Assembly (NCBI GenBank): GCA_030710605.1
Contig: CP092879.1
Coordinates: forward strand, 46,478,735-46,542,734
Length of the DNA: 64,000 bases
Reading direction: 5' to 3'
Source of the DNA: Cordylochernes scorpioides
Lineage: Eukaryota > Arthropoda > Arachnida > Pseudoscorpiones > Chernetidae
Shown here piece after piece: positions 28,460 to 28,705 of this stretch (its first letter is position 1; the number at the start of each line of letters is the position of its first letter). Position numbers and translations under genes: made by a program. The notes beneath the pieces were generated by a model. That model was not told the DNA's origin, did no database searches, and saw nothing but the letters and a program-made list of their open reading frames with translations.

Positions 28460-28705
28460 AGGGCGCCATCTGTTATCAAAATTCGAAACTATTATAGACG
28501 CGTATGATTCTTTTTGAAAATAAACCATTTTATCGAAAAATGCTATATAACAGCGGTATGGTAGATTAAACTGGCGAAACCGCTGGGAGGGTTCACCACT
28601 GATGAGCCAGGCTCTCCCATTAATTTTTCCATTGAAGTAAGGACAGTAGAAATTGTTTATTTTCAAAAGAATCATACGCATCTATAATAGTTTCGAATAT
28701 TTATC
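28460..28705. repeat. Fold-back element with intact ribozyme-like core
   Basis: GCGCCATCTGTTATCAAAAT, then TCGAAACTATTATAGACGCG and GATTCTTTTTGAAAATAAAC on the left are inverted at 28645-28700. The core lies between the arms, so the RNA could form a long stem capped by the ribozyme fold. Confidence 0.8.
28552..28618 (+). ncRNA. Permuted hammerhead-like ribozyme motif, best copy
   Basis: AGCGGT (28552-28557), cleavage-site A (28558), TGGT (28559-28562), 8-base linker, CTGGC (28571-28575), GAAA (28576-28579), CCGCT (28580-28584), GGGAGGG (28585-28591), TTC, ACCA (28595-28598), CTGATGA (28599-28605), GCCAG (28606-28610), CTCTCCC (28612-28618). Stem III: AGCGGT with ACCGCT, 6 pairs including the obligatory A15.1-U16.1. 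Stem I: TGGT with ACCA, 4 pairs. Stem II: CTGGC with GCCAG, 5 pairs. An extra helix GGGAGGG with CTCTCCC has 7 pairs. All conserved hammerhead nucleotides are present, but strand order is cleavage strand, GAAA strand, CTGATGA strand instead of a canonical circular permutation. Cleavage is predicted after 28558. Not tested biochemically. Confidence 0.65.

Follow-up and report, generated by a model that had tools for sequence, protein, structure and literature searches.

The closest described relatives of the RNA motif considered here are the hammerhead ribozymes of type SGC, so named by Eckert, Friedrich, Weinberg and Weinberg in 2023 for the order of their building blocks (PMC10085705). According to the parts of that paper on which we draw, 583 sequences of this type were predicted from metatranscriptomes, and five candidates cut themselves at the predicted site in vitro, with one lacking an intact site failing to do so; observed rate constants (kobs) of 0.007-0.19 per min are given. 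In these RNAs a fourth helix joins stems I and II, the linker between stem III and this helix being sometimes 0 nt long, and the same parts of the paper place none of them, a type-GCS candidate excepted, in the genome of a known organism. Here we describe a motif with this block order at positions 28552-28618 (+) of a stretch of 64,000 nucleotides from the pseudoscorpion Cordylochernes scorpioides (assembly GCA_030710605.1, contig CP092879.1, positions 46,478,735 to 46,542,734 of the forward strand), which we call the window and to which coordinates refer unless a contig is named. The locus is very likely a copy of a short non-coding retroelement, akin to retrozymes or to the pseudo-long terminal repeats (pseudo-LTRs) of Penelope elements, that carries a predicted self-cleaving ribozyme of the non-circularly permuted type SGC.

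Both kinds of retroelement have known hammerheads. The non-LTR retrozymes of animals, as portrayed in the consulted parts of Cervera and de la Pena 2020 (PMC7229834), consist of tandem non-coding units of low guanine plus cytosine (GC) content with a type I hammerhead and long target duplications; they give rise to circular RNAs, and their host genomes also hold Penelope-like elements with minimal hammerheads. Penelope pseudo-LTRs, in the corresponding accounts (PMC3846280, PMC11167929), combine inverted and direct copies with a TATA box, a hammerhead within the repeat and a tail that may be absent. An initial annotation of the window, which had recognized the strand order, knew of no natural example of it; this statement falls because PMC10085705 describes type SGC. 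The new finding relative to that paper is that an animal genome harbors the type-SGC motif as part of a huge repeat family, and within the open-access literature searched we found no report of type SGC in such a genome. Membership of the motif in a high-copy element likewise goes beyond the initial annotation.

The hammerhead core and its strand order

Direct reading of 28552-28618 (+) yields a full set of hammerhead nucleotides along with stems I, II and III, and the parts and pairings that had been proposed for it all hold. The features are as follows.

28552-28562 (+): block S, with the stem III 3' strand AGCGGT at 28552-28557, A17 at 28558 and the stem I 5' strand TGGT at 28559-28562
28571..28584 (+): block G, with the stem II 3' strand CTGGC at 28571-28575, GAA at 28576-28578 and the stem III 5' strand ACCGCT at 28579-28584
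28585..28591 (+): 5' strand GGGAGGG of P4, the helix joining stems I and II
28592-28594 (+): TTC, between the P4 5' strand and block C
28595..28610 (+): block C, with the stem I 3' strand ACCA at 28595-28598, CTGATGA at 28599-28605 and the stem II 5' strand GCCAG at 28606-28610
28611 (+): single G between block C and the P4 3' strand
28612..28618 (+): P4 3' strand CTCTCCC

The strands thus follow one another in the order S (site), G (GAAA) and C (CUGAUGA). Stem I is formed by UGGU/ACCA, stem II by GCCAG/CUGGC and stem III by ACCGCU/AGCGGU, and the seven-pair helix P4 (GGGAGGG/CUCUCCC, including one G-U pair) closes the loop that carries block C. In naming positions we take CTGATGA to be C3-A9 and the GAA to be G12-A13-A14, followed by the A15.1-U16.1 pair and H17. 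The hammerhead core elements CUGANGA, GAA, A15.1-U16.1 and H17 are all present, and the predicted cut falls after 28558 (A17), subfamilies B and C of the repeat family having C17. The minimum-free-energy fold of the + strand forms both hairpins (z -2.53; 3/200 shuffles equal or better), including the extra helix that the initial annotation had placed at the base of the second one; for the - strand of the region the corresponding values are z -0.99 and 31/200. The two hairpins would kiss through stems I and II, clamped by P4.

We scanned the window with a descriptor that covers all six block orders, with stems of 4/4/4 and 4/5/5 bp and a maximum of one GU pair per stem. It matched three times (20350, 28552 and 57036), each time in the order SGC, which bears out the claim of a non-canonical arrangement, and gave no match in the window for the other five orders, the classical type I, II and III permutations included. 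Not one of 300 dinucleotide shuffles of the window yielded a match in any order. As a positive control we used virus loci chosen by a pattern that type II fits; the 120 listed gave 104 type II (GSC) matches and one match each to SCG, CGS and SGC. The type II matches indicate that the descriptor works, and the lone viral SGC match (L046) is, by eye, an alternative block S inside a type II motif. Type II matches in these listed loci (L001-L120) often occur several to a contig. Rfam returned no match for the whole window at gathering thresholds; at E values up to 10 the 28552 region drew solely non-ribozyme matches far under their cut-offs, the best being MIR821 (37.6 bits vs a cut-off of 249), which lies on the palindromic arms.

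A high-copy family and its paired changes

The window holds seven clear copies and several degraded ones, detected by blastn and by a profile built from the seven. Across the 2.62-Gb Cordylochernes scorpioides assembly (24 contigs), the two-block pattern GGCGAAACN{8,30}CTGATGAGC has 36,495 + 36,317 = 72,812 exact matches, and its reversed control has none; since some matches are without block S, the total is not the number of complete ribozymes. A longer pattern for subfamily C, running from the site to CTGATGA, has 8,026 exact genome matches. The fetched loci and the window together contribute 71 non-redundant profile matches; block S is present in 37, of which 27 are distinct, and the core and stems I-III are kept in 24 of the 37, gaps not being counted as faults. 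Elsewhere the exact patterns are absent from viral contigs and from phages, and prokaryote contigs gave 0 and 1 matches (the one being L121). The antisense frame 28415-28681, used as a protein query, had no matches, and a DNA search of the species' own genome returned 0 matches, though this search skips very common words. The other copies in the window are listed below.

57036..57102 (+): second intact SGC core, subfamily A, with one P4 mismatch
20350..20416 (+): third intact SGC core, subfamily B, with C17 and P4 mismatched at both ends
24180..24246 (-): subfamily B copy with damaged stem III; 15-bp direct repeat at 24470 and 24108
46542..46608 (-): subfamily B copy with core CTAATGA and damaged stem III
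31932..31998 (+): subfamily C copy with damaged core CTGATTA, P4 pair 2 A-U and stem I pair 2 G-C
8366..8508 (+): subfamily A copy truncated at its 5' side and lacking block S, with the 3' end inverted at roughly 8150-8202 and 10-bp direct repeats at 8139 and 8505
12975..13112: ribozyme-free palindromic remnant flanked by 12-bp direct repeats AAAGGATGTATG (by eye)

A diverged relative at 23775-23860 (+) has an S-block-like TAGCAGCGGTATGGTAGATTAA, after which the G and C parts come in altered form, with CTGGTGG replacing CTGATGA. Four further loci (L123, L127, L134 and L143) show blocks G and C without block S in another surrounding repeat, with ATCGCTCATATGA... upstream.

For subfamilies A and B we derived consensus sequences from three window copies each, dropping gaps and columns without a majority. 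The two agree at 62/65 ribozyme columns vs 33/56 columns of the 5' flank (where A is represented by one or two copies) and 72/103 of the 3' flank, a difference in divergence between ribozyme and flanks with a Fisher p of 1.1e-6. The three differences within the ribozyme are H17 (A or C) and the two partners of the outer pair in stem II (C-G or U-A). Among the 27 distinct copies, stem I pair 2 is G-C in 20, A-U in 6 and A-C in 1; stem II pair 1 is C-G in 11, U-A in 15 and C-A in 1; and P4 pair 2 is G-C in 18, A-U in 6 and G-U in 3. Copy 31932 has the clade C backbone yet a G-C pair in stem I, and the stem I change therefore seems to lie inside clade C. Over all helices of these copies 550/583 cells are paired, vs 189-284 of 524-586 when the partners are slid, and both-sided changes affect 25 cells vs a shuffle mean of 8.9, with 0/1000 shuffles as high. 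The six window copies alone give a weak signal (93.9% of cells paired; 28/500 shuffles as high). P4 is mismatched in some of them. On the covariation check that the initial annotation had proposed, the sampled copies show both-sided changes in stems I and II (about one event each) and in P4, and none in stem III. Block order, pairings, kissing-hairpin topology and predicted cut site are supported, three helices out of four showing compensatory changes.

Element anatomy and a candidate life cycle

The copy at 28552 lies within a larger unit bounded by direct repeats, and a TATA-like box can be placed in copy 57036.

28437..28452: 5' copy of the 16-bp direct repeat ATATTTATCTTTATTA, a target site duplication
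28453..28530 (-): copy, in inverted orientation, of the 3' end of the element itself plus a tail AACAGATGGCGC... that is absent from the direct copy; end approximate
28619..28696 (+): 3' part of the element, common to other copies
28697..28712: 3' copy of the 16-bp target duplication
57004..57011 (+): TATA-like box TATAAAAG, 32 nt upstream of block S in copy 57036 (from the alignment, distance by eye)

Convincing terminal direct repeats of 16, 15, 12 (by eye) and 10 bp flank four of nine window copies, and three of these four carry at the 5' side an inverted part of the element's 3' end together with the tail AACAGATGGCGC.... The combination of inverted partial copy and target duplication is seen at 28437-28712, 8139-8514 and 12975-13112. 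TATA-like boxes align in all five window copies that extend far enough, at a distance from block S, counted by eye, of 32 nt in subfamilies A and C or 42 nt in B; we infer that the transcription start would therefore lie at the ribozyme or immediately upstream of it. The unit is about 370 bp long and non-coding, with one hammerhead each, and it occurs in tandem: one locus (L149) has two head-to-tail units of 371 bp between 16-bp repeats, and another (L202) four of 368 bp between 12-bp repeats, one compared pair being 99.7% identical. An inverted truncated unit precedes both arrays, whose GC contents are 35.1% and 34.5%. As a whole array lies within one target duplication, the multimer would have formed before or during insertion. 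Further runs with a step of 367-368 bp occur at L203 and among the subfamily C pattern matches listed.

A different array, at L152 (C1:3060300-3062000), repeats with a step of 122 bp, its inner units starting exactly at U1.1, the nucleotide directly after the predicted cut. The idea that 5' truncation points are tied to the cleavage site was dropped: 5/54 copies start exactly at U1.1, three of them belonging to this one array.

The most likely job of the ribozyme is the cutting of multimeric RNA to unit length for circularization and reverse transcription. Transcription would begin at or just before the ribozyme; the hairpins would pair via stems I and II with P4 as a clamp, and the RNA would cut itself after H17. 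Multimeric transcripts would thereby be resolved into unit-length RNAs with 5'-OH and 2',3'-cyclic phosphate ends, which a host ligase may be able to close into circles. Circular or multimeric RNA would then be reverse transcribed, probably by a Penelope-like enzyme, to give the tandem units, inverted ends and target duplications. On balance we favor the view that the type-SGC hammerheads are working processing ribozymes of a very high-copy animal retrozyme that multiplies via self-cleaved, probably circular RNA.

Several observations weigh against this proposal. Five of the nine window copies have no direct repeats or stray 10-bp ones, and one of the four convincing duplications consists of 10 AT-rich bp. 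The compensatory changes reduce to about three independent events. Pairs with a both-sided change number 5, a value matched by 126/1000 shuffles, and stem III shows zero among the 27 distinct copies. In the six window copies there are two such pairs, a value reached by 134/500 shuffles and also by one slid version. In stem I of subfamily C just three pairs are contiguous. Stem III abuts P4 with zero linker, which is hard to fit into the known hammerhead fold, the same puzzle having been met by the authors of PMC10085705 according to the parts consulted. Damage affects 13/37 sampled full copies, in a sample that favors intact copies because the conserved pattern served to select most of the loci. 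Finally, no linked enzyme was found in a comparison with 30 loci of the P0002 Penelope family.

This last point bears on the leading rival, a possible though less probable account under which the units are pseudo-LTRs of an autonomous Penelope-like element, alone or in tandem, with SGC in place of the usual Penelope hammerhead. The inverted and direct copies, optional 3' tail, TATA-like box and target duplications match this plan, and Penelope-like frames abound in the same genome. Nevertheless, the P0002 loci are not regularly bounded by SGC units (SGC-like matches in 5/30, at varied places), and the arrays read contain no reverse transcriptase plus GIY-YIG frame between SGC units, the ribozyme units standing back to back. 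Comparison likewise gave no support to the SGC unit being the pseudo-LTR of the P0002 family or of a Penelope fragment within the window itself.

That fragment, at 9631-10865 (+), encodes a Penelope-like reverse transcriptase (RVT_1), with a GIY-YIG domain after it in a different frame; the reverse transcriptase (9631-10554) is 88-96% identical to Cordylochernes scorpioides P0001, P0005, P0006 and P0034 over 15-61% of length and 55-68% identical to others. On the opposite strand, 8954-8728 is a GIY-YIG-like fragment of a second Penelope family, with its 3' region occurring again in inverted orientation at 12116-12558. By eye, the 3' end of this family bears minimal type-I-like motifs GGACTGATGA...CGCGACCGCGT... 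at 8530-8600 (-) and 12480-12540 (+), which a relaxed descriptor does not list. Type-I-like hammerhead motifs also lie in the flanks of two Penelope loci of the same genome (L183 and L191), L183 having a sub-threshold Rfam match to Hammerhead_HH9 (28 bits vs 52). Other mobile-element fragments in the window are copia-like (1861-3597, -, by eye), of long interspersed nuclear element type with an RVT_1 domain (14004-16052, +), helicase-like (16321-17478, -) and with a Mos1-type helix-turn-helix domain (21799-22407, -). Shifted self-matches reveal tandem repetition at 22942-23628, each step measuring about 76 bp.

To return to the processing ribozyme that we favor, it is improbable that the motif is instead a relic or a structured binding site, a kissing-loop RNA whose cleavage no longer matters to the element. 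A lizard Penelope hammerhead needs protein and is dispensable for insertion in vitro, in the consulted account (PMC11167929), and the damaged copies would suit such a role. Against it, the flanks have diverged freely while the subfamily differences sit where a hammerhead tolerates them, at H17 and in paired changes, and the core bases are retained in the subfamily consensus. Still less credible is a remnant of a DNA transposon, either a miniature inverted-repeat transposable element or a foldback element, in which inverted repeats would just happen to look like hammerhead parts: inverted ends do occur, for instance at 28437-28712 and 12975-13112, yet the inverted portion copies one end to a varied length and the changes keep structure, and we dropped this reading because the direct repeats vary in length (10-16 bp) and entire tandem arrays share one duplication. 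Chance resemblance is hardly conceivable, given the shuffles without a match in any of the six orders and the paired changes between subfamilies.

Relation to known hammerheads and retroelements

Type SGC, published without a known host, can here be tied to a host and to a defined element that exists in very many copies, with natural variants of stems I, II and P4. Its biology, its evolution beside the type-I-like motifs of the same genome and the folding of a hammerhead with zero linker thereby become testable. If our reading is correct, type SGC would here have its first genomic home as far as the open-access literature searched shows, animal retroelements would be one candidate source of the type-SGC RNAs of environmental transcriptomes, and the retrozyme way of life would be independent of one hammerhead topology.

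As far as the consulted parts of the respective papers allow comparison, the pseudoscorpion motif shares with type SGC the block order, core, joining helix and missing linker (PMC10085705). Unlike those metatranscriptome RNAs, it is found in animal genomic DNA inside a repeat element, the likeness being judged from their description; its linker between stems I and II is 8 nt (5 with stem I extended) vs typically 3 nt there. The pseudoknot-containing hammerhead of PMC11300833 also combines a core with a pseudoknot and serves here as a lead only, the string 'permut' not occurring in its text. The element resembles the retrozymes of PMC7229834 in its tandem non-coding units (368-371 bp here vs 170-450 bp there), its GC content (about 35% vs below 45-50%), its target duplications of more than 4 bp (12 and 16 bp around arrays, 10-16 bp at 4/9 window copies), its single hammerhead per unit, its high copy number and the presence of Penelope-like elements in the same genome, and differs from them in that the ribozyme is of type SGC, not type I. 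With Penelope pseudo-LTRs (PMC3846280, PMC11167929) it shares inverted and direct copies, an optional 3' tail, a TATA-like box, target duplications and an embedded hammerhead; the Penelope hammerheads described there are of minimal type I, unlike the SGC topology seen here. The ribozyme would thus be a new member of type SGC, and the element a retrozyme-like variant carrying another hammerhead.
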